From a virus, in IMG/VR virus record IMGVR_UViG_3300027754_000149, positions 1 to 47,887 of that record: 47,887 bases of DNA; one strand, given 5' to 3'. Of the stretch, positions 28,889-40,519 are shown piece by piece. Every line of letters begins with the position of its first letter. Within the stretch, counting starts at the first letter, position 1. Both the position numbers and the translations under genes were made by a program. The notes under the pieces were generated by a model. That model was given only the letters and a program-made list of their open reading frames with translations, did not search any database and was not told the DNA's origin.

Positions 28889-29188
28889 CTATGGTTGTTT
28901 CAATACCCGTATCAAGTCGTATAACATTGTTATGTTGTCCTCATTGATTACAACTGCGGTGCCACCTGCACGGCGTATAGCGTCTAGCTCTTGGTGCTGC
29001 AATGCTGTCGGGGAACGATCATTGGCCTTGCACTCGACACCAAGGAATTTACCGTTGACGCAACATACAACGTCAGGCACACCCGACCGGCCATAGCCGT
29101 GGGTTGCGGGGAAGAAATAATAAACGCCGTTAGCCTTGAGTAGGTCAACGACCTTGCGCTTTACTTTTGCTTCGGGGGTAGTAGCCAT
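28889..29188 (-). CDS. VRR-NUC domain nuclease
   Basis: The 99-residue single-domain VRR-NUC enzyme has TPEAKVKRKVVDLLK, then GRSGVPDVVCCVNGKFLGVECKA, where D near 39 and E-C-K near 52-54 are the PD-(D/E)XK residues, and a Q-x-x-x-L helix (LQHQELDAIRRAGG). In phages such nucleases lie beside SNF2 and PolA genes and probably cut branched DNA. The predicted transcription start falls at or next to ATG 29188, so translation may be leaderless. Palindrome site 1 lies in its 3' end. Confidence 0.9.
   Translation of the reverse strand: MATTPEAKVKRKVVDLLKANGVYYFFPATHGYGRSGVPDVVCCVNGKFLGVECKANDRSPTALQHQELDAIRRAGGTAVVINEDNITMLYDLIRVLKQP
28922..28932. promoter_or_regulatory. TAACANTGTTA palindrome, site 1
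   Basis: This is the leftmost exact copy. It lies in the VRR-NUC gene, where it encodes ITML on the minus strand; flanking A/T extend the symmetry to 13 bp. Confidence 0.7.
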
Positions 29189-29194
29189 GTCCCG

Positions 29195-29223
29195 ATAATA
29201 CAGGACTACTTGACAATGTCAAG
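29195..29223 (-). promoter_or_regulatory. Sigma70-type promoter with -35 in a 15-bp palindrome
   Basis: Read leftward: TTGACA (29217-29222), 16-bp spacer, TATTAT (29195-29200). The -35 box is half of CTTGACAATGTCAAG (29209-29223), a perfect 15-bp palindrome that shares the ACAATGT centre of the dispersed TAACANTGTTA element. A repressor bound here would block the -35 box. The start point would fall near 29188, the first base of the VRR-NUC ATG. Confidence 0.75.
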
Positions 29224-29250
29224 AGGGGACTACAAAAAAAGAGGGGGGTT

Positions 29251-29278
29251 GGGCAGTAATGTAGATTACCTGCTGCCC
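29251..29278 (-). terminator. Probable terminator of the accessory early operon
   Basis: The interrupted hairpin has outer stem GGGCA/TGCCC and inner stem GTAAT/ATTAC with a CTGC bulge. Read leftward it is followed by a C-rich stretch and then seven T, just before the next promoter. The U-tract is about ten bases from the stem, so efficiency is uncertain. Confidence 0.5.
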
Positions 29279-29293
29279 GTCAGGTTGTGGAGG

Positions 29294-29329
29294 CTTACCG
29301 GCTGGACTTTAATTGGGGCTACCGGTAAG
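29294..29329. other. Intergenic inverted repeat
   Basis: Perfect 8-bp arms CTTACCGG and CCGGTAAG are separated by 20 bases in the gap between the DUF3310 gene and the VRR-NUC promoter. It may help termination or bind a protein. Confidence 0.45.
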
Positions 29330-29386
29330 AACGAATGGGGTCACATCTACAAGATTATACCCACGCGTTGATAGGACTGCCCCGCC

Positions 29387-29941
29387 TTATTCTGCTTTCT
29401 GTATAGCCCGTTCCAGATACCAACGTGCCTTCTGCAAATCCTGTAACGGGTCAGTGTCCTTGTGACCGGCACGAACTATATACTTCACGACGTTACCTAG
29501 ATGGTAACTCAACTGCTTAGCCTCAATGAAGTCGATCACCTCAAGCCCACCCACGGTGTAATGCGGGGGATGATTCACCATATCAGGTTGTGTAGTAATA
29601 ATTGCGGGGGTTGTATCGAACACTCCAGTAGCCTGTTCCATACCAGCTACTACCGCACCTACAACTGCATTGTGGAATCTATCGTTCTTACCTTTCTTCA
29701 GTAGATCATTACGCATCCACTTATACGTAGAGTCCTTACCCTTGGTCAGCGTCAACCCACCAACTTCTACGCCTTCCTTTATTTCCAACGGCGCATACCC
29801 GTTCGCCTTGTTCTCCTTCTTCATGTGATACCGTGCGCTATACACGTCTTGCGTAGTAGCATCACACCGCTTCGCTATTTCCTTCGTTGTGGCCTTCGGA
29901 TACTTCAGTATTGCCCTGCGAATCTTTTCTAACTTGCTCAT
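29387..29941 (-). CDS. DUF3310 protein with N-terminal winged-helix-like domain
   Basis: The 184 residues have two parts. Residues 1-40 (KIRRAILKYPKATTKEIAKR, then TTQDVYSARYHMKK) look like a winged-helix DNA-binding unit. Residues 120-184 (VNHPPHYTVGGLEVIDFIEA, LGNVVKYIVRAGHKD, DLQKARWYLERAI) are the conserved phage DUF3310 domain, proposed to be related to nucleotide kinases or pyrophosphohydrolases but not characterised. The start overlaps the RHH gene by 80 bases, an unusually long overlap. It is the last gene of its operon. Confidence 0.85.
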   Translation of the reverse strand: MSKLEKIRRAILKYPKATTKEIAKRCDATTQDVYSARYHMKKENKANGYAPLEIKEGVEVGGLTLTKGKDSTYKWMRNDLLKKGKNDRFHNAVVGAVVAGMEQATGVFDTTPAIITTQPDMVNHPPHYTVGGLEVIDFIEAKQLSYHLGNVVKYIVRAGHKDTDPLQDLQKARWYLERAIQKAE

Positions 29942-30125
29942 TGTCTAGCTCCTTGATGTGTTGTTCTGCATACTCTTTTAGAACCTCCCGCATCTTGGCT
30001 TGCGTGCGTGTCGGGTAGGTCTCTCTATACCACTTCATTACATGGGGTTCAAGCCTAATACTAGTGAATGCCAGTGCAGGTTTCTTCCCCTTACCTCTAC
30101 CACGTTTCTTGATAGCATCTTCCAT
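29862..30125 (-). CDS. Small ribbon-helix-helix-like DNA-binding protein
   Basis: I start at ATG 30125, giving 87 residues. A basic arm (KKRGRGKGKKPA) is followed by FTSIRLEPHVMKWYRETYP and helix QAKMREVLKEYAEQHI: a beta-strand then two helices as in RHH proteins. The last 25 residues are acidic and disordered. Palindrome site 2 lies 24 bases upstream of the start, as expected for self-regulation. It is a candidate binder of the dispersed palindrome. Confidence 0.6.
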   Translation of the reverse strand: MEDAIKKRGRGKGKKPALAFTSIRLEPHVMKWYRETYPTRTQAKMREVLKEYAEQHIKELDNEQVRKDSQGNTEVSEGHNEGNSEAV

Positions 30126-30148
30126 GTTGACCCCATGTTGGTAATGTA

Positions 30149-30159
30149 TAACATTGTTA
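30149..30159. promoter_or_regulatory. TAACANTGTTA palindrome, site 2
   Basis: This exact copy contains the TAA stop of the gene at 30157-30975 and lies 24 bases before the RHH-like gene start. Confidence 0.75.
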
Positions 30160-30975
30160 TGTTGCGTCGAGAATGAAAAAGGTATTGGCATCGACCTTGA
30201 GTCCTGCACCCTCAATGATCTGGCTATCCTCTACTAGCTTAAGCATACCCACCCCTCTACGTATGAAGTCAGGTAGCTGCTCGCTAGTACATACTTTAAT
30301 CTCACCGCCTTTACCCTTCTGCACAGCATAGTCCAACTCGTTGATCAACACAAGCCACCCGCTGCCGTTATTTCTACAATCATATACTGCATTTGCTACT
30401 CTGCTCTCATTAACCTCCTTCGGAAAGTTATGCCTCTCCTCATCAGTAATACTTAGCTGCGGGTTTAGAGTATCCCATTGCTCTAGTAATAGCTTAACAA
30501 CTGTAGGCATCATCTTGCTGTAGGTTGCCGCTATAATCCTATCCTTGTTAGTCGTAACACTATACGCTACGTGGCTAGCATGTTCCTGTGCCGTAGCCAA
30601 CATCTCAAGCACACTTTTACGCGCCACGAACTTGTTGATCTGTTTGATCGCCTTCTTCATGTCCGTAGTCCTGATGCTACTACCCCGCTTCCTAGATTTA
30701 TCTATGCGCTCGTTACCGATAACAAAGCAATTCCTTTCGTTATACAAACCCATAGATATCCTGCCTATCTCCTCGCGCTTCTCGGTAATAACCACTTCCC
30801 TCGCGCCTAGTATCTGCGAACTCGTGCTAAAGAACTTGTAGTTTTTGCACTTAAGTACCCATGTCGGATGGGCTAGTGCTACCGCCTCTACTAGCGGTTT
30901 GATAAACGGATGAATAACAAACGTGTTGCCGTGGTTGTCCGCATCTGTGCGTAACTCAATGTTAGCGTATGCCAT
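30157..30975 (-). CDS. Hypothetical protein, 272 residues
   Basis: This is a mixed alpha/beta protein. The N-terminal half has strands (WVLKCKNYKFFSTSSQILG, EVVITEKREEIGRISMGLY) and then a basic SRKRGSS stretch and KKAIKQINKFVARKSVLEM. The C-terminal half is helical. No catalytic motif is visible. Its stop codon lies in palindrome site 2. It is part of the operon that carries the AAA+/VWA pair, and I do not recognise it. Confidence 0.65.
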   Translation of the reverse strand: MAYANIELRTDADNHGNTFVIHPFIKPLVEAVALAHPTWVLKCKNYKFFSTSSQILGAREVVITEKREEIGRISMGLYNERNCFVIGNERIDKSRKRGSSIRTTDMKKAIKQINKFVARKSVLEMLATAQEHASHVAYSVTTNKDRIIAATYSKMMPTVVKLLLEQWDTLNPQLSITDEERHNFPKEVNESRVANAVYDCRNNGSGWLVLINELDYAVQKGKGGEIKVCTSEQLPDFIRRGVGMLKLVEDSQIIEGAGLKVDANTFFILDAT

Positions 30976-30987
30976 GTCTACTCTCCC

Positions 30988-31845
30988 TTACCAATCGAAC
31001 CGTTTAAGAATGTCATCTACCTTTGCCTTTACCGTGCTACGCACATCAGCACTTTCCTTAATCGCATCAATGTCCACACCTAACATTGTTATCTCAAGGG
31101 CACGTCGTGCTTCCTCCAACTGCGGGTCTTTCGTTATGTTCAAGTGAGTCAGCATGCTGCATAGACCTTGCGCGTTACTCACAAACGTATCATGGTAGCG
31201 CCGCTTGGTTTCATCATTGCCCTCTACGTCAGTCAACTTCTCCGACATACCGGTCAGCATGCTATGCAACTTATCCCACGGTTCCTTCATAGCGTCGGCT
31301 AGCCGTCCGCTGTAGCTGCTCTCGTATTGCTGTGCTAGCTCTTGCATCTCCTGTTGCGGTATATCCAAACGGAAGTCACCCGACTCAGGCAACGGACTAA
31401 ATACCAAACGGAATCCAAACTTCTGCTTAACATCCTCCAACGTAGGGTAATCGTCCGGGTCAAATAACGCGCCCATGTGATGCTTTGATAGGTCTATCAA
31501 ATCTATGTAGCTCGCGTAGAAGTCATTACACATGTTATCCATGTTGGCTTGATACGTGTTCATCGTCTGCTTGTATTCCATGAACAGCGACGTAGGTAAC
31601 AGGCGCGTCCCTTTGTCCGACCAAGACAACGTGGTCTTGTTGTGATACAGCCGGATACCTGCCGCGTAGTCTGCAATAACCTTGCGCTTGCTAGTGCCTG
31701 CCATAAGGTTCTTCTGAACCCTCGCGCTACCTGTGCTTGCTGAGTTATTGATAAGCACCGACTCGGTTGCCCCCTTGTCATACTTATTAGCAGGCCACAC
31801 GCTGATGTTCAACTCTACCAATACTGCGCTAGATGAAATGCTCAT
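30988..31845 (-). CDS. Hypothetical protein linked to the MoxR/VWA pair (DUF3150-like?)
   Basis: The 285 residues follow AGGAGATAGAC at the start. The N-terminus is beta-like (AVLVELNISVWPANKYDK), the centre helical (MEYKQTMNTYQANMDNMCND), with GFRLVFSPLPESGDFRLDI in the middle. A DUF3150 protein often accompanies CobS-like AAA+ and VWA genes in phages. The position and the order of secondary structure fit, but I cannot confirm the family. Palindrome site 3 lies inside it. Confidence 0.55.
   Translation of the reverse strand: MSISSSAVLVELNISVWPANKYDKGATESVLINNSASTGSARVQKNLMAGTSKRKVIADYAAGIRLYHNKTTLSWSDKGTRLLPTSLFMEYKQTMNTYQANMDNMCNDFYASYIDLIDLSKHHMGALFDPDDYPTLEDVKQKFGFRLVFSPLPESGDFRLDIPQQEMQELAQQYESSYSGRLADAMKEPWDKLHSMLTGMSEKLTDVEGNDETKRRYHDTFVSNAQGLCSMLTHLNITKDPQLEEARRALEITMLGVDIDAIKESADVRSTVKAKVDDILKRFDW
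31081..31091. promoter_or_regulatory. TAACANTGTTA palindrome, site 3
   Basis: This exact copy is inside the gene at 30988-31845, read there as ITML on the minus strand. Confidence 0.7.
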
Positions 31846-31854
31846 GTCTATCTC

Positions 31855-32103
31855 CTATTTCTTCTCTGGTTTACCTGCAAGTTTAGCCATCTGATACAAC
31901 GACTCGGTCATCAAATGCACTGATACCACTTGACTTTCTGTATCAATGTAGACGTGATGCGTAGTGCCGCCATCTTCTGCTTTGCGATACACCTCCTCAT
32001 ACTTCTCTACGCCGCTCAATGCTTCTAATACTTGCACGGCTTTATCCACATCCAACACATACTTGTGGTAGCCCAACATCACTATTGCTTTAGCTCTTGC
32101 CAT
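31855..32103 (-). CDS. Hypothetical protein, 82 residues
   Basis: ATG 32103 (MARAKAIVMLGYHKYVLDVD) follows AAGAAAGGGGAATAGG; longer frames would run far into the VWA gene. It has strands separated by helices (KAVQVLEALSGVEKYEEVYR, HHVYIDTESQVVSVHLM) and a basic tail. It is directly downstream of the VWA gene. Function is unknown. Confidence 0.65.
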   Translation of the reverse strand: MARAKAIVMLGYHKYVLDVDKAVQVLEALSGVEKYEEVYRKAEDGGTTHHVYIDTESQVVSVHLMTESLYQMAKLAGKPEKK

Positions 32104-32104
32104 C

Positions 32105-33352
32105 CTATTCCCCTTTCTTAATATGTATCGTCTTACCCACTGGTGCGATAACATCGTTATCAATAACCACCCATAGAACTGGTGCATTCCATTCCACTCC
32201 CCAAGAATCCCCAACGTATCCGTCAGTCAGGATGATGATTGCATCGGGTCGAATCGCTTTCTCCTGCATGTATCCGATCATGCAACTCGGGTCAGTGCCG
32301 CCACCACCTTTGGGTTGGGTCGATGTAACAATGTTATCCAGCGCGTTAGTATCGTATTCTTCATGTCCTGCTACTTCACAATCCCAATACAACAGGTCGA
32401 TCTTCTCTGGCTTCACATCTTGAGCGATACCCTGCACCTCAGCGAGGAAGTCATTCAACTCCTGACCTCCGATGGAACCGGACGTGTCGATGCCCACCAC
32501 CAGATGCCCCACCCTCTCGCTTATCAGCGTAGGCATATAGACACCAGTGTGCAGGAACCGCCGGTTAACCCTACGCCACGATGACGTATCACCACCACGC
32601 ATCGTAGACTTGACGAACTCACGCAGGGCTTCCTTCCAATTAACCTGTGGTGCTAGCAGGTCACCCAACTCACGGCTCATGCCACCCGCACCCTTACCGG
32701 CTATCTTCTGCTGTGCGATTAGCCCTTGTCGGATACCTGCATCCACATCACGCTCAAGGTCTGACTTCTCCTTGTCGGTCAACTCCTTGGCACCCTCCCA
32801 ATCATGCTCATCAAACCCACCGGCACCCTCACCCTCACCATCACCGGCACCGAACCTACCCTTACCATCCTTCTTCTCCTGCTTGAGTAGGTCGAACACC
32901 TGCTTGCTGTTCATGCCACGGAACTGCTCATCAAGTAGGCCAATGCGCTTACCGTTCTTAACCGGCATTGCTATAACATTGTTATTCTTATCCATATCAA
33001 CCAACTCAAGGTTGATCACGTAGTCACACGCCATGTTCGCCAACTGCGCATCCTCGTCATACAACTTACGCCAGATGAACAGATGCCGGTAGACCTTGTG
33101 CATAGTCTCGTGCAGCACAACGAACGCCAACTCCTTGTCATCCAACTCCTTGATGAACTCCCGCCCATACATCTCATCTCTACCGTTAGTAGCTGCGGTA
33201 GGCAGGTCATCCACTACCCTCGTTCTGCCTAGCATCATCACCCCCGACCAGAATGCAAACTGTGGGTTGCGCATGATGCTGATCTTCACCTTGCTAAGGC
33301 GACGCTCTTCCTTGTCCTTCTGTTCCACTCCCTGCTTGGCTACGGATAACAT
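32105..33352 (-). CDS. DUF2201-type protein: metallopeptidase-like domain plus VWA domain
   Basis: The 415 residues include HETMH at 81-85 inside LAFVVLHETMHKVYRHL, the zinc-binding motif of the putative metallopeptidase half. An acidic Gly/Asp/Glu-rich linker near 170-195 leads to a VWA half with the MIDAS motif VVGIDTSGSIGG near 286-297 and IILTDGY later. Such proteins pair with MoxR-type ATPases, and the AAA+ gene is immediately upstream. By analogy with CobS-CobT, the pair could remodel or insert metal into a target protein. The ATG start is the centre of palindrome site 6, six bases after GGGAG. Confidence 0.88.
   Translation of the reverse strand: MLSVAKQGVEQKDKEERRLSKVKISIMRNPQFAFWSGVMMLGRTRVVDDLPTAATNGRDEMYGREFIKELDDKELAFVVLHETMHKVYRHLFIWRKLYDEDAQLANMACDYVINLELVDMDKNNNVIAMPVKNGKRIGLLDEQFRGMNSKQVFDLLKQEKKDGKGRFGAGDGEGEGAGGFDEHDWEGAKELTDKEKSDLERDVDAGIRQGLIAQQKIAGKGAGGMSRELGDLLAPQVNWKEALREFVKSTMRGGDTSSWRRVNRRFLHTGVYMPTLISERVGHLVVGIDTSGSIGGQELNDFLAEVQGIAQDVKPEKIDLLYWDCEVAGHEEYDTNALDNIVTSTQPKGGGGTDPSCMIGYMQEKAIRPDAIIILTDGYVGDSWGVEWNAPVLWVVIDNDVIAPVGKTIHIKKGE
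32149..32159. promoter_or_regulatory. One-mismatch variant of the palindrome
   Basis: TAACATCGTTA near the 3' end of the VWA gene differs from TAACANTGTTA at one position. It may be a weak or decaying site. Confidence 0.35.
32326..32336. promoter_or_regulatory. TAACANTGTTA palindrome, site 4
   Basis: This exact copy within the VWA domain coding region is read as DNIVT on the minus strand, a different frame from site 1. Confidence 0.7.
32974..32984. promoter_or_regulatory. TAACANTGTTA palindrome, site 5
   Basis: This exact copy within the VWA gene is read as NNNVIA on the minus strand, the third reading frame seen for the element. Confidence 0.7.
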
Positions 33353-33357
33353 TGTTA
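33347..33357. promoter_or_regulatory. TAACANTGTTA palindrome, site 6 (contains a start codon)
   Basis: This exact copy has its central ATG as the start codon of the VWA gene, between GGGAG and the second codon. A bound protein or the fixed sequence could affect initiation. Confidence 0.75.
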
Positions 33358-33367
33358 TCTCCCTTGA

Positions 33368-34435
33368 TTAAAGTAAGTCCTCGTTCTTCTGAACCCAGTC
33401 AGCAAACTTCTTGCTGCTGAACGCTATCTGCTGCTTGCTCGGGGTCTTAGCGATGTTGATCGCAAAGCATGCTTGCCACTCGGCACCGAACCGTTCGATG
33501 TAGTCCATGAACGCATTGATCGTAGACTTATCCACCTTACTGATCGCACCGAACACTACAATGGCACATGCACCTGCGCTGTCAGGCACAGACGCACTCT
33601 TAGGATTGGCTATCACAGATTCCCACGTCGGCAACTGGTCTGCGAACTCAATGTAAGCCTGCATCGCACGACTCGCTGACTCACCCACGGCACCACTCAT
33701 TGCTGCTATCAGACTCTCGCTATCCAACTGCGAGCGCACCTTAACAATGTTAGACACCCGCTCAAGACTGCGAGGCGATACGAAAGCAGTCTGCATCCTC
33801 TTGGGGTTGTAGATGAACTCATTCCCATCTTGGTTGCCATCGGTGTAGCTTGCCATCGCATGCGGATACTGCTTAACCCATGCACATATCTCTGGCGCGA
33901 TACCGTTGTTCATCGCCCACCCCAACCACTCATCAGCATCGGGCTTTCTTACACGTAGCGGGATAATACGATTGCGACTATGCGCCTTCAGGCTGTCACC
34001 TACACCGTCACTACTCAGGTTACCGGTAAGGAACGTGATGCTCTGGTCATGCACAGGTATGTCACCTAAGCGGGGATTCACCACCTCAAGCATGGGGTGC
34101 AGCATGTTCTTGATCGGGTCAGCACCCTTCGTATACTCATCTAACATTGTTATGACGGGCTTACCTAGATGCAACTGGAAGCGGCTGTTCGGGTAATACC
34201 TAGTAGTGCGTGTCTCGTGGTCGATCACCGGCATAGCAATGTCACCCAAGTCCATGTTCGGCACGTCGATGTATGCTGTGCTGTGATTGGGCAACGCTGC
34301 TGCTAGCGTCTTAATCAGAGAGGACTTACCAATTCCGGGTTCCCCCTCTAACAAGTAGCGGTTGCTCGGCGTGGACAGGATGATCTTCGCGCTCTGTGCC
34401 AACGTGATTGTCTTACCAAAAGTTACTTCAGCCAT
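33368..34435 (-). CDS. MoxR/CobS-like AAA+ ATPase
   Basis: The 355 residues start at ATG 34435 (MAEVTFGKT), with AGGAG eight bases upstream. Walker A is GEPGIGKSS near 30-38. A MoxR-type insert follows (NMDLGDIAMPVID), then Walker B VITMLDEYTKG near 93-103, sensor 1 FLTGNLSSDG, and an arginine-rich RNRIIPLRV. The C-terminal lid domain is helical. It should form a ring that acts with the VWA partner encoded 15 bases downstream. The long leader upstream carries four tandem repeats, palindrome site 9 and a strong promoter, so expression is probably high and controlled. Confidence 0.9.
   Translation of the reverse strand: MAEVTFGKTITLAQSAKIILSTPSNRYLLEGEPGIGKSSLIKTLAAALPNHSTAYIDVPNMDLGDIAMPVIDHETRTTRYYPNSRFQLHLGKPVITMLDEYTKGADPIKNMLHPMLEVVNPRLGDIPVHDQSITFLTGNLSSDGVGDSLKAHSRNRIIPLRVRKPDADEWLGWAMNNGIAPEICAWVKQYPHAMASYTDGNQDGNEFIYNPKRMQTAFVSPRSLERVSNIVKVRSQLDSESLIAAMSGAVGESASRAMQAYIEFADQLPTWESVIANPKSASVPDSAGACAIVVFGAISKVDKSTINAFMDYIERFGAEWQACFAINIAKTPSKQQIAFSSKKFADWVQKNEDLL
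33742..33752. promoter_or_regulatory. TAACANTGTTA palindrome, site 7
   Basis: This exact copy within the AAA+ gene is read as SNIV on the minus strand. Spacing to neighbours is about 395 and 400 bp. Confidence 0.7.
34142..34152. promoter_or_regulatory. TAACANTGTTA palindrome, site 8
   Basis: This exact copy coincides with the Walker B codons (ITMLDE) of the AAA+ gene. Confidence 0.7.
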
Positions 34436-34479
34436 GATCTTACTCCTATTAAAGTATGTATAAGTTACGAGTATTGATA

Positions 34480-34490
34480 TAACATTGTTA
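34480..34490. promoter_or_regulatory. TAACANTGTTA palindrome, site 9
   Basis: This exact copy lies in the non-coding leader of the AAA+ gene, four bases from the tandem repeat array and 45 bases before the start codon. Flanking bases extend the symmetry to 15 bp (34478-34492 with one mismatch). Confidence 0.8.
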
Positions 34491-34494
34491 TGTG

Positions 34495-34588
34495 CTGCCA
34501 ACTAGGAACGTCTTGCTGCCAACTAGGAACGTCTTGCTGCCAACTAGGAACGTCTTGCTGCCAACTAGGAACGTCTTGCTGCCAACTT
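34495..34588. repeat. Tandem array: four identical 21-bp units plus a partial fifth
   Basis: Units start at 34495, 34516, 34537 and 34558, each beginning CTGCCAACTAGGAACG; the fifth stops after about ten bases. There are no mismatches between units. Twenty-one bp is two helical turns, so bound proteins would line up on one face as in iteron arrays. The array is transcribed in the leader of the AAA+ gene. A structured leader RNA or recent polymerase slippage are alternatives. Confidence 0.95.
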
Positions 34589-34619
34589 AGCGGCGACTAC
34601 TTATTGCCGTTTTCAACTA

Positions 34620-34639
34620 ACAGGGCGGACTTTCCCTGT
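34620..34639 (-). other. Hairpin at the 5' end of the leader transcript
   Basis: ACAGGG/CCCTGT arms with an 8-base loop lie at the predicted transcription start of the 34.65-kb promoter, so the mRNA would begin with a stem-loop, a common way to protect a 5' end. Confidence 0.45.
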
Positions 34640-34647
34640 AAGTATAT

Positions 34648-34676
34648 ATTATACCACATAATACTACCCATGTCAA
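34648..34676 (-). promoter_or_regulatory. Consensus sigma70 promoter for the AAA+/VWA operon
   Basis: Read leftward: TTGACA (34671-34676), 17-bp spacer, TATAAT (34648-34653). Both boxes are full consensus and the spacing is optimal. It directs transcription from about 34,641 through a roughly 205-base leader into the AAA+ gene. Confidence 0.9.
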
Positions 34677-34693
34677 GTGTTTTGGCGTCTTAC

Positions 34694-35608
34694 TTAGCTA
34701 GCGTCGTCGGCATGAAATGAATCCCAATTGCTACCGTAGAACCCCTTGTATGCGTCCTTCTTCACCTCGCCATCGGGAACTTGCACCTCCTTGAATACCC
34801 TGTCGCGGTTAACCCCAAGCAGCACGTTCTCGTAGAACTCCATGTCTATACGCACCGTATCCCTGTAATGATCAATTCCTCTGCATAGCAGCATAGATGC
34901 TCGGTAAAAGTCATAGTGCTTGTTCTCCATCGTGCTTAGCATCCACTTGTTCAGATACTCCACCCGTTGAGTAAACTCGCTTCGCCCGTTCATGCGTGTA
35001 TCACTTGTAGGGTAATGCCCTTGTGCCAACGCCTCCTCTATCTCCTGTTTATGCACGCCCTCACCTGCACGTAGTTTGAGGAAAGCACATATGTATTCAT
35101 GGAAGGGGCGGTATGGTGCGAGTGCTTCCTTCTTACCCTTGCGGTCTACCATGTGGACGATGCGCTTATCCCAATCGCTTAGCGTGAAGGTGTCCATCCC
35201 ACCATCGGGATGCTTTGTTCTGGTTAACGTAGTAGGGGCATGACTATGTAAGCGGTATTCTCCGCCATCACTAAACTTAACGCAGATAGAACCGTCGAAC
35301 ACCCGCGTTTGAATACCCAGACGCCACACCAATTCGCTGATGAACTTGCAGGTCGAACTGCTTATCCACTGGTTGAGGGATATAACAATGTTATCCTCCG
35401 GCGTGAACGTAACCACTGGCGTGTTGTAGAGGAAGCACTGGATGTTGCCGTTCTCCTGCTTGAATATACGGAAGCTGTCGATCTTACTGCGCTTACCCAA
35501 CGGGCGCTGATCTTCAGCCCGCCCACGGATATGCTTGGTAGTCTCATGCCTTTTCAGTGCCTCCGCGTAGTTTTCTATGCTACTGATACCTGATACTTGA
35601 TAGCTCAT
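34694..35608 (-). CDS. Hypothetical protein, 304 residues
   Basis: I start at ATG 35608 (MSYQVSGISSIENYAEAL), preceded by GGAGGTGTGAG. It has mixed structure: basic near 25-45 (IRGRAEDQRPLGKRSK), beta-rich to about 150, and helical afterwards (FHEYICAFLKLRAGEGVHKQ, YLNKWMLSTMENKHYDFYRA). It is the last gene before the 34.65-kb promoter. No family is recognised. Palindrome site 10 falls within it. Confidence 0.65.
   Translation of the reverse strand: MSYQVSGISSIENYAEALKRHETTKHIRGRAEDQRPLGKRSKIDSFRIFKQENGNIQCFLYNTPVVTFTPEDNIVISLNQWISSSTCKFISELVWRLGIQTRVFDGSICVKFSDGGEYRLHSHAPTTLTRTKHPDGGMDTFTLSDWDKRIVHMVDRKGKKEALAPYRPFHEYICAFLKLRAGEGVHKQEIEEALAQGHYPTSDTRMNGRSEFTQRVEYLNKWMLSTMENKHYDFYRASMLLCRGIDHYRDTVRIDMEFYENVLLGVNRDRVFKEVQVPDGEVKKDAYKGFYGSNWDSFHADDAS
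35383..35393. promoter_or_regulatory. TAACANTGTTA palindrome, site 10
   Basis: This exact copy within the 304-residue gene is read as DNIVIS; A/T flanks extend the symmetry. Confidence 0.7.
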
Positions 35609-35688
35609 CTCACACCTCCACTCATAAAGAACCACGTTACCACCCACCCACTTACTACTCCCAGTATCCAAACGATTAGCATCTCCAT
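35605..35688 (-). CDS. Single-span membrane peptide, 27 residues
   Basis: ATG 35688 follows GGAGAAATGAG. The peptide begins MEMLIVWILGVVSGWVVTWF and is almost entirely one membrane helix. Its stop overlaps the next start (ATGA). It is too short for family recognition; coupling and the ribosome site support translation. Confidence 0.5.
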   Translation of the reverse strand: MEMLIVWILGVVSGWVVTWFFMSGGVR

Positions 35689-35689
35689 C

Positions 35690-36037
35690 TCATTTCTCCG
35701 GTTTGTCTAAGTTATCTAATGCGAATCTACCCCGCGTCGCAGCGGCCACCATCGTATCCCACCATTCCTCAGTGCAATCCACAGTGCCATCACGCGTCTC
35801 CCATGCGCTAACAATGTTATGTAGCATCAACGCAAGCATGGCTTTCTCGTCCGTCAGATCGTCCATTGCCTTTTGCCACGCAGGGTCAACTTGGGTTATT
35901 GGTGTAGGTTCGGGTGCGGCTTGCACTTCTGTTGTAGTCTGGCACTTAGAACACCACCCAAAGAACACCCCTTTTTCCAATTCAGCCGCCACGTTAAGTG
36001 TCATCTCGCACACTCTACAATTTAAATACTTCATCAT
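35690..36037 (-). CDS. Zinc-ribbon-like hypothetical protein, 115 residues
   Basis: Two CxxC pairs (CRVCE near 7-11, CSKCQ near 29-33) form a likely zinc ribbon at the N-terminus. A Pro/Thr linker and a helical C-terminal domain (KAMDDLTDEKAMLALMLHNI, then EEWWDTMVAAATRG) follow. The start is ATG 36037 or the adjacent 36034. Palindrome site 11 lies within it. Function is unknown. Confidence 0.6.
   Translation of the reverse strand: MMKYLNCRVCEMTLNVAAELEKGVFFGWCSKCQTTTEVQAAPEPTPITQVDPAWQKAMDDLTDEKAMLALMLHNIVSAWETRDGTVDCTEEWWDTMVAAATRGRFALDNLDKPEK
35809..35819. promoter_or_regulatory. TAACANTGTTA palindrome, site 11
   Basis: This exact copy within the zinc-ribbon gene is read as HNIVS on the minus strand. 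Confidence 0.7.
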
Positions 36038-36108
36038 GCCTCCAAAATAAAGAATACAAACACAGCACCGACCACTACCCCTACGAGGAACATCATAGCT
36101 TCGATCAT
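36034..36108 (-). CDS. Single-span membrane peptide, 24 residues
   Basis: ATG 36108 overlaps the upstream stop (ATGA) after AGAGGAGTTGAA. The peptide MIEAMMFLVGVVVGAVFVFF plus ILEA is one hydrophobic helix with a GxxxG-like face. Its stop overlaps the next start. Confidence 0.5.
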   Translation of the reverse strand: MIEAMMFLVGVVVGAVFVFFILEA

Positions 36109-36431
36109 TTCAACTCCTCTGGTATCTCTACCTCATCACCTAGCTTGGATGCAACGTAGCAGCGCATTGCTGCAATCAGGGGCGTTGGGCCGGTCAGCCT
36201 GTGGGTTTCGCTTTCGCTGTTTTTGTACGCCGCCCAGCTTCCACCACCAAGGTTTTCGACACGGGCTATCTCCCGCTCGATGATCGAGCCACCTTGCGAC
36301 CAATCGGTTGAGTAGTGCATATTAAACATTTCATGGTGCGGATGATCTTCGTATGTAAACTCTACTTTTTCACACTTCGCTACTGCCCAATCAAGGGCAG
36401 CACCTTGTAACTCACTCGTTTTGATCTTCAT
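36105..36431 (-). CDS. DUF2591 (NinX-like) protein, copy 1
   Basis: The 108 residues have an N-terminus MKIKTSELQGAALDWAVAKC, a centre with TDWSQGGSIIERE, and a C-terminus GPTPLIAAMRCYVASKLGDE, which together define the phage DUF2591 family found among lambdoid nin-region genes; its function is unknown. The second copy lies immediately upstream with identical ends and a different middle. The start overlaps that copy's stop (ATGA). Confidence 0.9.
   Translation of the reverse strand: MKIKTSELQGAALDWAVAKCEKVEFTYEDHPHHEMFNMHYSTDWSQGGSIIEREIARVENLGGGSWAAYKNSESETHRLTGPTPLIAAMRCYVASKLGDEVEIPEELK
36112..36194. repeat. 83-bp direct repeat, copy 1 (DUF2591 3' end)
   Basis: It is identical over 83 bases to 36435-36517, by eye. 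It encodes the shared C-terminal module of the two DUF2591 genes. Identity at silent positions shows recent duplication or gene conversion. Confidence 0.9.
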
Positions 36432-36434
36432 ACT
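36373..36434. repeat. 62-bp direct repeat, copy 1 (DUF2591 5' end)
   Basis: It is identical over 62 bases to 36768-36829. It encodes the shared N-terminal module and the bases around the start codon. Confidence 0.9.
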
Positions 36435-36826
36435 AACTCCTCTGGTATCTCTACCTCATCACCTAGCTTGGATGCAACGTAGCAGCGCATTGCTGCAATC
36501 AGGGGCGTTGGGCCGGTTCGATAGTCTATGTCGCCTTGATCGGTAAACAAGGTTTCGATGCGGTATGAAGTCCATGCTTCCTGCTCGACGTACGACTTCT
36601 GGTCGTTGGGTGCAACGGTTAATTTCTCACGCTCGATGATCGGGCCTGCATATGACCAGTTAGTTGAGGGTTCCCATGTCCACGGGGTGTAACCTTCCTT
36701 TGCGGCTAGCACGTATAGTGGTCGGCCACAAGTTCCAGCAGGTCGAATCTCAATATCCATCTTCTCGCACTTCGCTACTGCCCAATCAAGGGCAGCACCT
36801 TGTAACTCACTCGTTTTGATCTTCAT
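36428..36826 (-). CDS. DUF2591 (NinX-like) protein, copy 2
   Basis: I start at ATG 36826 because the conserved family N-terminus begins there; AGGAGAGAAAGT lies just upstream. The 132 residues share the first 22 and last 32 or so with copy 1. The middle is unrelated in detail (RPAGTCGRPLYVLAAKEGYT, then TNWSYAGPIIERE) and about 25 residues longer. Conserved ends with a variable centre suggest diversification for different partners, or recombination with another phage. Confidence 0.9.
   Translation of the reverse strand: MKIKTSELQGAALDWAVAKCEKMDIEIRPAGTCGRPLYVLAAKEGYTPWTWEPSTNWSYAGPIIEREKLTVAPNDQKSYVEQEAWTSYRIETLFTDQGDIDYRTGPTPLIAAMRCYVASKLGDEVEIPEELV
36435..36517. repeat. 83-bp direct repeat, copy 2
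   Basis: It is the partner of 36112-36194. The offset is 323 bp, so recombination between copies would delete one DUF2591 gene cleanly. Confidence 0.9.
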
Positions 36827-36829
36827 ACT
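36768..36829. repeat. 62-bp direct repeat, copy 2
   Basis: It is the partner of 36373-36434, covering the start of DUF2591 copy 2. Confidence 0.9.
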
Positions 36830-37101
36830 TTCTCTCCTAGTTGCTCGCGTATAACAGTTGTTATGCATGCATCCACCTTGATCAACCGCTTCCTGCCACG
36901 CGGTTTAATGGGGGTGCGGTTATAAAAATAGTCCTCTGCTGACCGCATGTTTTCATACACCTTCACGTCGTAATAAGACTTCTTGTGATGCTCAGCTACC
37001 TGCACATGAAACTCTATGCCACTCTTAGAGGCAAGCTCGATCTGCCGCTTCATACCTTTCAGCCTTCTCCAACTCTTAAAGTGTGGGTCTCTGGGCATCA
37101 T
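36823..37101 (-). CDS. Hypothetical basic protein, 92 residues
   Basis: ATG 37101 (or 37098) overlaps the upstream stop. It is Lys/Arg-rich (FKSWRRLKGMKRQIELASK, PIKPRGRKRLIKVDACITT), with a strand segment EFHVQVAEHHKKSYYDVKVY. The high basic charge suggests nucleic-acid contact. It is unrecognised. Confidence 0.6.
   Translation of the reverse strand: MMPRDPHFKSWRRLKGMKRQIELASKSGIEFHVQVAEHHKKSYYDVKVYENMRSAEDYFYNRTPIKPRGRKRLIKVDACITTVIREQLGEKV
36852..36863. promoter_or_regulatory. Spaced variant of the palindrome
   Basis: TAACAGTTGTTA keeps both TAACA/TGTTA arms but has a two-base centre. It lies within the basic protein gene. Confidence 0.35.
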
Positions 37102-37334
37102 TTGAATTCATCCTCGTGCAGCACCGGCTCTTTAGCTGCCTCTGCCCACTTATCCGTAAGCCACAACACATCGTCAACATTGTCGGCACCGATACACGGA
37201 TCACCAAACCCTGTGGGCTTGCCATCAGCGTCATAAGTCACCTCCTTCAGAGTAATCCAGTCCTTCCCGTCGTTCTCCGCAGGTGTATTCACAAACCTGT
37301 AATTCCACGTAAACTCGCCGTTCTTCTCGCTCAT
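37098..37334 (-). CDS. Hypothetical acidic protein, 78 residues
   Basis: It starts at ATG 37334 after AAGGAGAACGAG. It is acidic and beta-like at first (GEFTWNYRFVNTPAENDGKD, ITLKEVTYDADGKPTGFG), with a helical end (WLTDKWAEAAKEPVLHEDEF). Its size and the WITLKEVxYD pattern fit small phage inhibitors or host-interaction proteins, but I recognise no family. Confidence 0.6.
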   Translation of the reverse strand: MSEKNGEFTWNYRFVNTPAENDGKDWITLKEVTYDADGKPTGFGDPCIGADNVDDVLWLTDKWAEAAKEPVLHEDEFK

Positions 37335-37352
37335 CTCGTTCTCCTTGTGTTG

Positions 37353-37583
37353 TTAACTTGCCTGCTTTGCTACCACTAGCACATCTTTACCCTCGATCTT
37401 CAACAGGCGCTTCTTGAATCCCTTGCCGATGTTGATCGCATGGTAATACCAGAGCGCCTGTGCTGCCTTGCAGAAACTGTTTCGGGTCTTGTATGCACCC
37501 TTCGTATAGCGTCCGATTTGCACACGCCAGATTACTTTCGGTGCAGTCAGGTCTAGCTCCTGCTGCTGTGGTGTCTGTAACAT
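37353..37583 (-). CDS. Hypothetical protein, 76 residues
   Basis: ATG 37583 lies inside palindrome site 12, with AGGAG eight bases before it. The N-terminus is Gln-rich (LQTPQQQELDL); then WRVQIGRYTKGAYKTRNSF and a helix (AAQALWYYHAINIGKGFKKR) suggest a small alpha/beta fold. It is unrecognised. Confidence 0.6.
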   Translation of the reverse strand: MLQTPQQQELDLTAPKVIWRVQIGRYTKGAYKTRNSFCKAAQALWYYHAINIGKGFKKRLLKIEGKDVLVVAKQAS

Positions 37584-37588
37584 TGTTA
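37578..37588. promoter_or_regulatory. TAACANTGTTA palindrome, site 12 (stop and start codon)
   Basis: This exact copy supplies both the TAA stop of the gene at 37586-37744 and the ATG start of the gene at 37353-37583. One element thus forms the whole junction between two genes. Confidence 0.8.
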
Positions 37589-37744
37589 TTTCTCCTGTTG
37601 ATATTTTCTAGCGAGTATTGCTACTACCTGTGAGTAACTCAGAGTCACGCCTAGTTGCTCTTCCAACACAGCCTTGCATGCAGTTAGTGCTTCGACTTGC
37701 GCTCCCGTAAGTGAAATAGTCTTGGCTATGTATTTCTTGTCCAT
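37586..37744 (-). CDS. Small ribbon-helix-helix-like protein, 52 residues
   Basis: ATG 37744 overlaps the upstream stop (TGATGG) after GGGAGGTTG. The sequence KKYIAKTISLTGAQVEALTA, then LGVTLSYSQVVAILARKY, fits a short strand followed by two helices with a central turn, as in CopG-like RHH repressors. It ends exactly in palindrome site 12. It is a candidate binder of the dispersed palindrome. Confidence 0.55.
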   Translation of the reverse strand: MDKKYIAKTISLTGAQVEALTACKAVLEEQLGVTLSYSQVVAILARKYQQEK

Positions 37745-38115
37745 CACAACCTCCCTGCTATCATTAGCGCCACCATTTCGGCGCGGTTAACTTGCACGGT
37801 GACATACCTGTAGTTCATATGCCATTCCTTCCACGCATCGCACGTAGGGCATCCTACTTCACGGTCTTTACACGGCTTGCCTACGTAGGCAGTCACCTCC
37901 TTCTTGGTCATCGGCACCCTGATGGTGACGGTAGTGTCTATCTTCATCTTTTTTAGCGGGTTGATTTCATGTAACATTGCTATGCTTCTTGGTTTCACAA
38001 ACTCTAGCTTGGTCTTGGGGTCGAATATGTAGCGGTTAAGCCGCGCCGCTTGTTTCGCCAAGATGTGCATCTCAGTGTGATGTTTCAACCACTCTTCCTT
38101 TGTCGGCTTCTTCAT
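37744..38115 (-). CDS. Hypothetical protein with cysteine cluster, 123 residues
   Basis: The start at ATG 38115 overlaps the upstream stop. The N-terminal helix is charged (TKEEWLKHHTEMHILAKQAA), the centre beta-like (KMKIDTTVTIRVPMTKKEVT), and CKDREVGCPTC near 82-92 could hold zinc. It ends with NRAEMVALMIAGRL. It is unrecognised. Confidence 0.6.
   Translation of the reverse strand: MKKPTKEEWLKHHTEMHILAKQAARLNRYIFDPKTKLEFVKPRSIAMLHEINPLKKMKIDTTVTIRVPMTKKEVTAYVGKPCKDREVGCPTCDAWKEWHMNYRYVTVQVNRAEMVALMIAGRL
37972..37982. promoter_or_regulatory. One-mismatch variant of the palindrome
   Basis: TAACATTGCTA within the 123-residue gene differs from the consensus at one base. Confidence 0.35.
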
Positions 38116-38279
38116 TTCACAACCTCCTCTTTGACTTCACTGACAGGCGGGTATTCGACAGCCACGAGTTCGTTGTCGCTCCCGCACAGGTAATCCATCT
38201 CTACACCGAGGGTCTCCAGTGCGTCATCGGCGTTTTCAGCCTGTATAAATACTGTGATGTTTATCTCGTAGGTTTTCAT
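38112..38279 (-). CDS. Hypothetical protein, 55 residues
   Basis: I start at ATG 38279 (MKTYEINITVFIQAENADDA), preceded by AGGAGGAAGTGA. The strand-helix-strand outline resembles many small phage proteins with an xxAxDAxEx helix. It is coupled to both neighbours by ATGA overlaps. Function is unknown. Confidence 0.6.
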   Translation of the reverse strand: MKTYEINITVFIQAENADDALETLGVEMDYLCGSDNELVAVEYPPVSEVKEEVVK

Positions 38280-38452
38280 TTCACTTCCTCCTGATTTAGC
38301 ATCCATTTGAGAAACTCCTCGCTGTCCCCTAATGCTAGGGCTATGGACATGCGAACACGCCAATCCCCTTCACTACCCCTGCTCAACAGCGTAGCAATCC
38401 ACGCTAGTCTTTCCTTCTCTAGTCTTTCCTTCTCTGTTAGTAGCATGTTCAT
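38276..38452 (-). CDS. Hypothetical helical protein, 58 residues
   Basis: I start at ATG 38452 (MNMLLTEKERLEKERLAWIA), with GGGAGGGCTGG upstream. A 15-bp direct repeat in its 5' end encodes EKERL twice. The rest is helical (WRVRMSIALALGDSEEFLKW). It is coupled by overlaps on both sides. Confidence 0.55.
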   Translation of the reverse strand: MNMLLTEKERLEKERLAWIATLLSRGSEGDWRVRMSIALALGDSEEFLKWMLNQEEVK

Positions 38453-38700
38453 TTCACCAGCCCTCCCTTGTTGTTCAGGCCGTGCAGGTCGCGCCGGTCT
38501 GTGATTAAAACGTAGTTGCTTTTGTGCATCGGTGCTATGCACCACGTAGCACGCGCAGCTTTTGCTGCTTGCTCACCGCAGAATAGGCACACCTTGTAAC
38601 CCAACGCCCAACGGCGCGGCTCTACGTCATCGCCGCAGTAAGAGCAATGCAACCCGCTGTCTACCGCCGTGTTCTCGGCACATAACATTGTTATGCTCAT
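38449..38700 (-). CDS. Cysteine-rich zinc-finger protein, 83 residues
   Basis: ATG 38700 gives MSITML, the codons of palindrome site 13. Two CxxC pairs (CSYCGDD near 19-25, CLFCGEQ near 38-44) form a treble-clef-like zinc finger, followed by IAPMHKSNYVLITDR and a GLNNKGGLV end that I have seen in other phage early genes. A DksA/TraR relation is possible but the spacing is not decisive. Confidence 0.65.
   Translation of the reverse strand: MSITMLCAENTAVDSGLHCSYCGDDVEPRRWALGYKVCLFCGEQAAKAARATWCIAPMHKSNYVLITDRRDLHGLNNKGGLVK
38683..38693. promoter_or_regulatory. TAACANTGTTA palindrome, site 13
   Basis: This exact copy begins within ten bases of the start codon of the zinc-finger gene, reading ITML on the minus strand. 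Confidence 0.75.
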
Positions 38701-38701
38701 C

Positions 38702-39001
38702 TCACACACCCTTCTTCTGTGCGTTTAACCAACCCTGCGCGATGTGCAGGTAGTTTGCCGCCTCAACCGTCAACACCCGTCCAGCGTCCAACTCTTTTGC
38801 TGCCCACAGCAAATTGTCCATCATGGCAACTACATCAACCTCTACTACCCCCAACAACCTGTTTGCCCACTCGGGATGCACCCAAGCAGCAACACCATCG
38901 AAGCACACCCACACCCAACCCTCGGGGCGAGCATTCCACCCCAACACGGCTACCTCTGCCGCAATCGCTTCGCTCAAATCAATCATCTCGTTCGTGTTCA
39001 T
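38702..39001 (-). CDS. Hypothetical protein, 99 residues
   Basis: ATG 39001 follows GAGGAGATAGAT, a start cassette also used at 39462 and 39682. The sequence is hydrophobic and Trp-rich (LGWNARPEGWVWVCFDGVAA, AMMDNLLWAAKELDAGRVL). The fold is unclear. It is unrecognised. Confidence 0.6.
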   Translation of the reverse strand: MNTNEMIDLSEAIAAEVAVLGWNARPEGWVWVCFDGVAAWVHPEWANRLLGVVEVDVVAMMDNLLWAAKELDAGRVLTVEAANYLHIAQGWLNAQKKGV

Positions 39002-39015
39002 ATCTATCTCCTCGT

Positions 39016-39462
39016 TTAGTAAAGATGAAACCCTGATACCGCTTGTATCGCAGCAACAATCTGCTGCTGACTACGACCACCCGTTGACGTTGATAGCTGC
39101 ATACCTCGCATGGACGGGCGAATGTTGGTTATGGTGCCGCCGCATACTGAAGCCATGATGCTATTTGCATAGCTATCGGAGTAGTCATAACCCCCTGCGG
39201 CCTCCATAATTGCAACGAACCGTTTCTCATACGGGTTATGGGGTTGCGTCTCCATCCACGCCTTGCGTATCTCATACAAGGTGCCTTGAAACTCGTCGGA
39301 GCCGATAACCTTCTCGCTCGCATCTTTAACCACCCGATCTAAGGTGTCGCCCTTATATGCAGCGAGCAGCTTAGGGGTAGCAAAAGGCACGGAATGAACC
39401 ACCGCACCGTCCACCACAATCTCCACGTTGCCGTGGCATAACATTGTTATGCAGTAGCCCAT
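39016..39462 (-). CDS. Hypothetical protein, 148 residues
   Basis: ATG 39462 follows TTTAGGAGATAGAT. The N-terminus is beta-like (MGYCITMLCHGNVEIVVDGA), and the middle charged and helical (DASEKVIGSDEFQGTLYEIR). The end is Gly/Ser/Thr-rich with GGRSQQQIVAAIQAVSG. Palindrome site 14 lies 13 bases into the gene. Function is unknown. Confidence 0.6.
   Translation of the reverse strand: MGYCITMLCHGNVEIVVDGAVVHSVPFATPKLLAAYKGDTLDRVVKDASEKVIGSDEFQGTLYEIRKAWMETQPHNPYEKRFVAIMEAAGGYDYSDSYANSIMASVCGGTITNIRPSMRGMQLSTSTGGRSQQQIVAAIQAVSGFHLY
39439..39449. promoter_or_regulatory. TAACANTGTTA palindrome, site 14
   Basis: This exact copy near the 5' end of the 148-residue gene reads ITML, as at site 13; the two genes share this short N-terminal coding element but nothing else. 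Confidence 0.75.
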
Positions 39463-39476
39463 ATCTATCTCCTAAA

Positions 39477-39487
39477 TAACACTGTTA
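39477..39487. promoter_or_regulatory. TAACANTGTTA palindrome, site 15
   Basis: The arms are exact, with central C instead of A/T. It contains the TAA stop of the gene at 39485-39682 and ends just before the ribosome site of the next gene. Confidence 0.75.
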
Positions 39488-39682
39488 TTTCTCCTTCAAG
39501 TAGGGGAACTCGGTAACCGCGTAGCTGCACCACTTGCCAGTAACAACCTGCGCCAACAGGTAAGGTTCTTCAGCGTGGAAGTTTCCATAGACCTCTGAGA
39601 ACGTGTCACCCCATACCGCAGCAAAACGCTGCAAAAACGCCTGATCTACTGCTGACCGGCAACCTGCAAAATCTACCAACAT
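39485..39682 (-). CDS. Hypothetical protein, 65 residues; first gene of the operon
   Basis: ATG 39682 follows TTAGGAGATAGAT. The sequence is compact and aromatic (FLQRFAAVWGDTFSEVYGNF, WCSYAVTEFPYLKEK). It is the first gene after the 39.77-kb promoter, so it is among the earliest expressed and is a fair candidate for a host-takeover protein. No family is recognised. Confidence 0.6.
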   Translation of the reverse strand: MLVDFAGCRSAVDQAFLQRFAAVWGDTFSEVYGNFHAEEPYLLAQVVTGKWCSYAVTEFPYLKEK

Positions 39683-39699
39683 ATCTATCTCCTAAGTAA

Positions 39700-39714
39700 C
39701 CTAACAATGTTAGG
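39700..39714. promoter_or_regulatory. TAACANTGTTA palindrome, site 16 (15-bp form)
   Basis: CCTAACAATGTTAGG is perfect over 15 bp and extends to 17 with the flanking A/T. It lies between the 39.77-kb promoter and the first gene's ribosome site. Confidence 0.85.
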
Positions 39715-39763
39715 TGCATCGAAAAAACCACTTAACCTATAAATAATCTTCCCCTACCCCTAT

Positions 39764-39792
39764 ATTATACCACATTGTTATGGTCAAGTCAA
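39764..39792 (-). promoter_or_regulatory. Sigma70-type promoter of the early accessory operon
   Basis: Read leftward: TTGACT (39787-39792), 17-bp spacer, TATAAT (39764-39769). The spacer contains TAACAATGTGG, a copy of the palindrome with one damaged arm, so a dimer bound there would overlap the polymerase. It has the same GTGGTATAATATA core as the 34.65-kb promoter. Confidence 0.85.
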
Positions 39793-39872
39793 GTAATTTG
39801 GGAATGGGTGCAGGTAAAAGTCACGGAGGAGAAAAGGGGGGAAAAAGTATTTCCGACCACATCGGGAAGGGT

Positions 39873-39995
39873 AAAGTTATAAAGTAAGAAAAAACAGGGT
39901 AAAGTTAGAGAATTTTTTTGCGTTTCTTACAATATAAAAAATGAATAAAATCAGTTAGATAGATAGATAAAATATGTATAAAGTTATAAAGTAAG
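39873..39995. repeat. 16-bp direct repeat pair, 107 bp apart
   Basis: AAAGTTATAAAGTAAG occurs at 39873-39888 and 39980-39995; a shortened GTAAAGTTA lies between at 39899-39907. It is in the non-coding hub, AT-rich, and suited to a protein binding or unwinding site. Confidence 0.75.
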
Positions 39996-40265
39996 TACTT
40001 TTTCAATATTAAGAGTATGCCGTCCTTGCAAATCCCTTTTTATTTTTTATTTCGTGCTTAACTGCGCGGAGTGCTCTTTCGACTCGACGGTCACCTCTCA
40101 ATATTCCCGAAAAGTCTTACATTACACAAAAAAGTGGTGTTTTTCCCTTTGTAATCATGGGGTTAACTAATGTAAGAGTCATTTTTCGTTTTCTAACATT
40201 CCTTTATAATCAAACACTTATTTCTTACATTACTTCTAACATTAGGCCGCTTTCTCTTACAATAC
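39926..40265. repeat. Dispersed CTTACAWTA motif cluster
   Basis: Copies lie at 39926-39934, 40116-40124, 40224-40232 and 40256-40264, with an inverted copy at 40168-40176. All lie in the non-coding hub. The motif is short, so chance plays a part, but five copies in 340 bp are more than expected. Confidence 0.55.
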
Positions 40266-40274
40266 CCCTTAGTG

Positions 40275-40289
40275 TATAACAATGTTATA
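40275..40289. promoter_or_regulatory. TAACANTGTTA palindrome, site 17 (15-bp form)
   Basis: TATAACAATGTTATA is perfect over 15 bp and lies in the non-coding hub. Confidence 0.85.
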
Positions 40290-40414
40290 ACGTAAGAAAA
40301 AAACTGAAAATAACCGAAGTTTTTCGTATAAGACCTTTATTTATCTTCAGTCGGCCCTCCTCATGCCCCCCGCCCTGCAGAACTATCACACGGAAAAATC
40401 CCGCCTAGCGGCGT

Positions 40415-40429
40415 CCTAACATTGTTAGG
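40415..40429. promoter_or_regulatory. TAACANTGTTA palindrome, site 18 (15-bp form)
   Basis: CCTAACATTGTTAGG is perfect over 15 bp, with the same outer CC/GG as sites 16, 19 and 20, all non-coding. Confidence 0.85.
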
Positions 40430-40464
40430 TTGTTCGTCGCTACGGGTAAATGATGGACAAAAAA

Positions 40465-40484
40465 ATACCCGCCGAAGCGGGTAT
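40465..40484 (-). terminator. Intrinsic terminator of the 180-residue gene
   Basis: ATACCCGC/GCGGGTAT forms an 8-bp stem with a TTCG tetraloop on the minus strand, followed by seven T. This is a textbook intrinsic terminator for leftward transcription, isolating the gene at 40536-41078 from the hub. Confidence 0.9.
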
Positions 40485-40499
40485 AAATGAAGCGGGAAA

Positions 40500-40517: not shown

Positions 40518-40519
40518 CT

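Follow-up and report, generated by a model that had tools for sequence, protein, structure and literature searches.

Temperate phages provide the best-known examples of dispersed operators. In the early region of the temperate Streptomyces phage phiC31, one repressor acts at conserved inverted repeats, which are dispersed palindromic operators, and to our knowledge no spacer dialects have been described for them. In bacterial chromosome organisation, the matS site is a 13-bp palindrome with a one-base centre that occurs in about 20 copies within one genome domain, and its partner MatP is a ribbon-helix-helix (RHH) protein. Cluster A mycobacteriophages carry more than 20 short stoperators, which are recognised by one phage protein (the L5 repressor), lie in promoter regions and elsewhere, have an effect on elongation, and differ in site specificity between related phages (PMC9283540). 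SPBRE of Bacillus phage SPbeta is a dispersed repeat that was found in silico before its binder, the phage master repressor MrpR (PMC10516654). In Cluster K phages, 11-19 short conserved repeats (SAS/ESAS) are located near translation starts, and some of these include inverted repeats and a spacer that varies (PMC3203893).

The window analysed here spans an entire IMG/VR virus record (47,887 bases) and encodes, among other proteins, a terminase, a portal protein, DNA polymerase A and a helicase. It contains 20 exact TAACANTGTTA cores, all of them within 28922-41178 and none elsewhere, and 26 strand-hits with at most one mismatch were found in the window against 0.06 expected. Across the leftward early genes, TAACA-n-TGTTA sites recur at intervals of about 0.6 kb, and none were found in the rest of the window (Table 1). 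Taken with the link between such sites and the g405 gene in related phages, this distribution suggests a DNA-binding switch acting genome-wide and not a replication origin. Based on the comparisons given below, we consider it somewhat probable that g405, the product of the gene heading the leftward operon, binds the sites and silences or road-blocks early transcription, with the AAA+ leader as one node of a dispersed-operator network.

Table 1. Positions of the palindromic sites and of the associated genes and signals in the window.
Feature	Position	Strand	Remark
Dispersed palindrome	28922-28932		Close to 3' end of Hjc-like gene; final site of segment
BrnA-like RHH-type gene	29862-30125	-	Candidate binder ranked second
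Dispersed palindrome	30149-30159		Leader of RHH-like gene
Dispersed palindrome	31081-31091		Within ORF 30988-31845
Metallopeptidase-like/VWA (DUF2201) gene	32105-33352	-	3' of AAA+ gene
Dispersed palindrome	32326-32336		Within VWA gene
Dispersed palindrome	32974-32984		Within VWA gene
Dispersed palindrome	33347-33357		Contains VWA start codon
AAA+ (MoxR-like) gene, driven by leader	33368-34435	-	Pfam AAA_5; PHROG 1297 ATPase
Dispersed palindrome	33742-33752		Within AAA+ gene, codons SNIV; codon-level conservation in N1-spacer relatives
Dispersed palindrome	34142-34152		Within AAA+ gene, codons ITML before conserved DE; codon-level conservation in N1-spacer relatives
Dispersed palindrome TAACANTGTTA	34480-34490		AAA+ leader; position conserved in relatives
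4.5 tandem 21-bp units	34493-34587	-	21-bp period
Short hairpin, predicted transcript 5' end	34616-34643	-	Inverted repeat; arms extend to 34616-34625 / 34634-34643
Sigma-70 type promoter TTGACA-17-TATAAT, TG before -10	34648-34676	-	5' of AAA+ gene; 12/12 consensus
Dispersed palindrome	35383-35393		Within ORF 34694-35671
Dispersed palindrome	35809-35819		Within ORF 35690-36037
Dispersed palindrome	37578-37588		Contains start codon of ORF 37353-37583
Dispersed palindrome	38683-38693		Start of ORF 38449-38709
Dispersed palindrome	39439-39449		Start of ORF 39016-39462
Dispersed palindrome, centre C/G	39477-39487		Overlaps stop of ORF 39485-39682, just 5' of next gene
Dispersed palindrome	39702-39712		Between promoter 39792-39764 and RBS of ORF 39485-39682
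Second strong early promoter TTGACT-17-TATAAT	39764-39792	-	11/12 consensus; palindrome, then RBS downstream
Dispersed palindrome	40277-40287		Non-coding
Dispersed palindrome	40417-40427		Non-coding
Dispersed palindrome	40523-40533		Just 3' of g405
g405, 180 aa, early gene heading leftward operon	40536-41078	-	Between two sites; proposed site-binding protein
Dispersed palindrome	41168-41178		About 90 bp 5' of g405 start; first site of segment
Small XRE (HTH_3) gene	20028-20252	-	Outside site segment; candidate binder

Like the stoperators of Cluster A, the sites are many and nearly identical (20 in the window), and they may share a single binder. The L5 sites, however, are asymmetric, oriented with transcription, and scattered over a temperate genome in its promoter regions and short intergenic gaps, whereas the sites described here are palindromes, occur in both centre orientations, keep to the early segment and, in phages with a one-base spacer (N1), lie within genes in about half of the cases. 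Furthermore, no integrase was detected here, and g405 has neither a detected HTH nor a reliable match to a curated family. With palindromic sites that lie partly in genes, the network is not a member of the L5 system, and g405 seems unrelated to the L5 repressor as far as visible. The SPBRE system also differs, as MrpR is a recombinase-like prophage protein and its sites are found in a limited number of promoter regions. The feature expected of a dispersed-operator network, namely sites that follow one regulator gene across genomes, was observed for the candidate regulator g405.

The first-pass annotation had singled out the leader of the AAA+ gene, and all of the elements that it listed there are present: the TTGACA-17-TATAAT promoter, a stem-loop at the predicted start (6-bp stem ACAGGG/CCCTGT, 8-nt loop), four 21-bp repeats plus a partial one (4.5 copies, 100% match), and the exact palindrome ATAACAATGTTAT at 34479-34491. 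Of these, the promoter and the palindrome are the elements of consequence. The repeat unit is found in 4.5 copies in the window and L002. In the nearest relatives, L003, L004 and L005, whose AAA+ proteins are 91-92% identical to that of the window, it occurs once (L003 and L004) or twice at 32-bp spacing (L005), and no perfect copy of its 15-bp core was found in any other locus fetched. Since the number and spacing of the repeats vary among the nearest relatives, they are treated as a tandem duplication in the leader; they look incidental, and most likely represent a lineage-specific event in an untranslated region rather than iterons. The 5' hairpin, which has no counterpart at that position in L003 or L005, is probably incidental as well, and distant relatives carry neither repeat nor hairpin. 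The whole leader folds no better than its own shuffles (z -0.73) and has no Rfam match. Among named phages, no DNA relative of the leader region or of g405 was found, the few short matches to the leader being chance-like.

A palindrome is located within 140 nt of the ATG in 112 of the 115 AAA+ leaders of non-redundant relatives, a set that leaves out those flagged as g405-negative, and a promoter match was found in 107 of these leaders. The leader site lies a median of 38.5 nt 5' of the ATG and, where both elements were found, a median of 51 bp downstream of the -10 (range, 28-157). The distance of 157 bp in the window is longer than in most relatives because the 21-bp repeats fill the difference. 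The same order of promoter, leader, site (39702) and RBS follows the promoter at 39792-39764. As the site is placed downstream of the start point, a road-block is suggested over simple promoter occlusion. The proposal that this is an autoregulated leader of the AAA+/VWA genes thus holds in part: the leader does look regulated, given the site in 112 of 115 cases, but autoregulation by the AAA+/VWA products is unsupported because the sites run over about 12 kb and follow g405.

Relatives were collected by a search with the AAA+ protein, and most of the site-bearing ones harbor 9-28 copies of the palindrome. Comparison of these phages revealed that the half-sites are shared, while the spacer of 0, 1, 2 or 3 bp is phage-specific: N1 in most relatives, N2 in L020, L043, L046, L052, L055 and L056, N3 in L053 and L054, and N0 in L067. 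The base outside the core is A in the window's own clade and C in others. A TGACA half-site dialect was found in L323, L328 and L331, which hold 10-11 copies of CTGACA-N2-TGTCAG; the g405 helices of these three are diverged, and helices and sites are possible specificity-determinant pairs. In the longer records, the sites occupy, apart from a few outliers, a single stretch that opens where the leftward early operon starts and closes in the vicinity of the Hjc-like gene. Their exactness is high, with 308 exact and 10 one-mismatch cores counted in N1-type loci, and on the operon strand A is favoured at the centre (1234 A vs 797 T), with both centre orientations occurring in leaders. A de novo palindrome search in the site-less clade found none. 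A scan of IMG/VR for CCTAACAATGTTAGG yielded, among the matches listed, almost only contigs of this phage group. Bacterial genomes searched for prophage copies gave, among the matches listed, a single relative with 54% identity, on a 7-kb contig of metagenomic origin, and otherwise short matches in Micromonospora.

According to an approximate gene caller, about half of the N1 sites are within genes (159 vs 150); 73 of the 80 N0, N2 and N3 sites are non-coding, though most of the sequence codes. Many sites are found 10-50 nt before start codons or contain an ATG. In the AAA+ gene of most N1 phages, the in-gene sites are spelled by the same codons (ATA ACA ATG TTA and TCT AAC ATT GTT), whereas the N2 phages L020 and L022 encode identical SNIVK residues with AGC AAT ATC GTG instead. 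Analysis of synonymous conservation in 27 N1 phages placed all seven site codons in the top 19 of 239 testable columns, and in 14 non-N1 phages the three testable site codons rank 53-119 of 165. This comparison indicates that the in-gene sites are under selection as DNA, even at the cost of codon choice. In four phages with mixed spacers (L006, L011, L040 and L067), the sites within genes are mostly N1 and the intergenic ones mostly N2 or N0, a pattern that would be expected if non-coding sites switch dialect first. Mixed spacers in L006, L011, L040, L060 and L067 suggest that dialect switches are ongoing.

The sites closely follow g405, the presence of which was called by HMM, so that a very diverged copy could escape. 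Among the first sixteen records, g405 was found in every site-bearing one and was absent from the site-less G012. In 81 loci containing both terminase and AAA+ genes, counted before duplicate removal, all of the g405-positive ones carry dispersed palindromes; three that lacked TAACA sites proved to hold CTGACA-N2-TGTCAG. After reduction to 64 non-redundant loci whose early region is complete, dispersed sites were present in 59 of 59 g405-positive and in none of five g405-negative loci (Fisher p 1.3e-7, uncorrected for kinship). No other family in the interval between TerL and AAA showed a g405-like pattern. On the AAA+ tree (FastTree), the five negatives form five separate branches requiring 5 changes, and they look, as a consequence, like separate losses of g405, in which the dispersed sites appear to have been lost as well; the AAA+ leaders of two g405-negative phages, L290 and L299, retain a site. 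A site was found within 150 bp upstream of 121 of 145 g405 copies and downstream of 135 of 150 (random, 16%), as expected of an autoregulated gene. The dialect labels require 9 changes on the g405 tree compared with 21 when shuffled; N2 belongs mostly to one g405 subfamily, with at least three further N2 lineages elsewhere.

The g405-positive L296 and g405-negative L299 are a close pair (AAA+ distance, 0.025) that amounts to a natural deletion experiment, although their differences exceed the loss of g405. No alignment to the g405 region of L296 was found in L299, where 3 sites are left in the available stretch; the SNIV site is lost, and the leader and VWA sites are kept. A short local repeat array is located 3' of the g405 position in both (L296:6761-6880 and L299:6530-7098). 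Two g405 copies in one early region were observed in G010, G011, G014 and others.

The g405 protein itself has no convincing Pfam, PHROG or PDB-sequence match, and tblastn found no match in phage records. The AlphaFold2 model is confident (mean pLDDT 84.5), two-part and helical, and Foldseek returned no match to it in PDB or BFVD. No DNA-binding family or HTH was detected, so that, with neither family nor fold matched, DNA binding by g405 is proposed from its association with the sites.

Four other explanations were considered. The first-pass annotation had offered a replication origin with iterons and palindrome in the AAA+ leader, which would suit tandem repeats spaced by two helical turns beside a palindrome. 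The nearest relatives nevertheless differ freely in repeat number and spacing, the very observation named beforehand as speaking against it; the cumulative GC skew reverses near 17 kb and 41 kb, at the switches in gene orientation, and not at 34.5 kb, and the leader palindrome is only one among 20. Several ORFs near the leader have no assigned function, and none was found to match a known initiator family. The iteron origin was rejected on account of the variable array and the missing skew turn; an origin at the leader is unlikely, and one built of iterons and palindrome is extremely improbable. It is also unlikely, in our estimate, that the sites are bound by the BrnA-like RHH or the small XRE protein with g405 acting only as a modulator. 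Both are DNA-binding types by sequence, the RHH gene borders the site segment on its downstream side in 16 of 16 records, and the recognition helix of XRE is nearly invariant, as a fixed half-site would need. But g405 tracks the sites exactly, and neither of these genes does. XRE, found also in records G016 and G017, which have no sites or few, was rejected as binder for this reason; RHH was rejected because it persists in the site-less loci L042, L050, L266 (same record as L048) and L287, and because its contact-strand residues vary while the half-site is constant. No simple correlation of the spacer with RHH loop length or strand was seen by eye, and the RHH structure gave no useful fold match.

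That the sites organise or protect DNA in a matS/MatP-like or partition-like manner, with no gene repression, is regarded as rather unlikely. Such a role would fit near-exact 13-bp palindromes that keep to one segment, have no strict orientation and, in N1 phages, fall within genes in about half of the cases, but the sites are enriched in leaders between promoter and RBS, 73 of 80 N0/N2/N3 sites are non-coding, and no ParA-type ATPase was found in 16 records. Nor is an RHH binder linked to the sites as in the matS/MatP system, since the RHH-like protein persists without them, and the g405 model is, unlike MatP, all-helical. Action in RNA near translation starts, in the manner of Cluster K SAS, strikes us as very improbable. 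It would account for the many sites 10-50 nt before start codons or containing ATG and for the bias of the operon-strand centre to A; against it stand the intragenic half of the N1 sites, the occurrence of either centre orientation in leaders, and the exact sequence, kept with no compensating changes seen and with a spacer (loop) of variable length. SAS elements are in sense orientation at translation starts, asymmetric and have no assigned binder, unlike the exact palindromes found here, which also occur in mid-gene and have a linked protein.

In the preferred reading, with g405 as the binder, a strong sigma-70-type promoter would start the AAA+/VWA transcript, in which the palindrome sits past the promoter and ahead of the ribosome-binding site. 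The g405 protein, made early at the head of the operon, would bind the palindromes, shut off its own synthesis and, once bound, block initiation or elongation over the early genes. This would end early transcription, and it could also silence related phages that superinfect. Two observations count against g405 operators: about half of the N1 sites are in genes, where they are not needed for promoter repression alone, and degenerate sites are nearly absent, which operators do not usually show. Searches of 16 records, some of which are fragments, gave no match to PF00589, PF00239 or PF13614; with tyrosine integrases, serine recombinases and ParA-type genes all undetected, a role in lysogeny is unlikely, and we favour early shut-off or the silencing of superinfecting relatives. 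It is conceivable, though doubtful, that these phages, in which integration and partition genes were not detected, practise a stoperator-like silencing by a protein of new fold, the dialects being specificity types that silence close rivals and spare others, with each switch recoding at least 10 sites, the non-coding ones first.

A common group of uncultivated phages in which no lysogeny genes were detected keeps exact palindromes through its early genes alongside one early protein, and g405 may represent a new kind of site-specific DNA-binding protein. The dialects (spacer of 0-3 bp; TAACA or TGACA) and the five apparent g405 losses offer natural pairs for studying the recognition of half-site spacing, and such pairs could show whether non-lysogenic phages use networks of this kind to shut off early genes or to exclude superinfecting phages. 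A literature search of incomplete coverage found no phage paper for the core sequence TAACAATGTTA.

The cyanophage Pag-Yong1 of Planktothrix (L127, OL906435.1) shares the ATPase/VWA gene pair and has a dispersed palindrome family of its own, GGTTCAGNCTGAACC, at 8.8-47.6 kb; among named phages it is the closest analogue that was found. Its GTTCA-N3-TGAAC core is present at 22 sites in the 50 kb examined, and 17 of the 22 are intergenic, 11-83 bp before annotated starts. A literature search of incomplete coverage found no paper naming this phage. Its operon is headed by a 187-aa gene that is flanked by sites as g405 is; no homology of g405 to this first early gene was found.

Several minor features of the window were also noted. 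A stretch of about 0.8 kb (39764-40523) has few obvious genes and contains a strong promoter, a terminator-like hairpin (40484-40465) and several palindromes; its AT-rich part at 39.9-40.1 kb is a possible place to look for an origin. The ORF at 7746-16847 encodes 3033 aa with, at most, a weak HATPase-like match. The adjacent paralogous ORFs 36105-36431 and 36428-36868 share MKIKTSELQGAALDWAVAKCEK, indicating a recent duplication.
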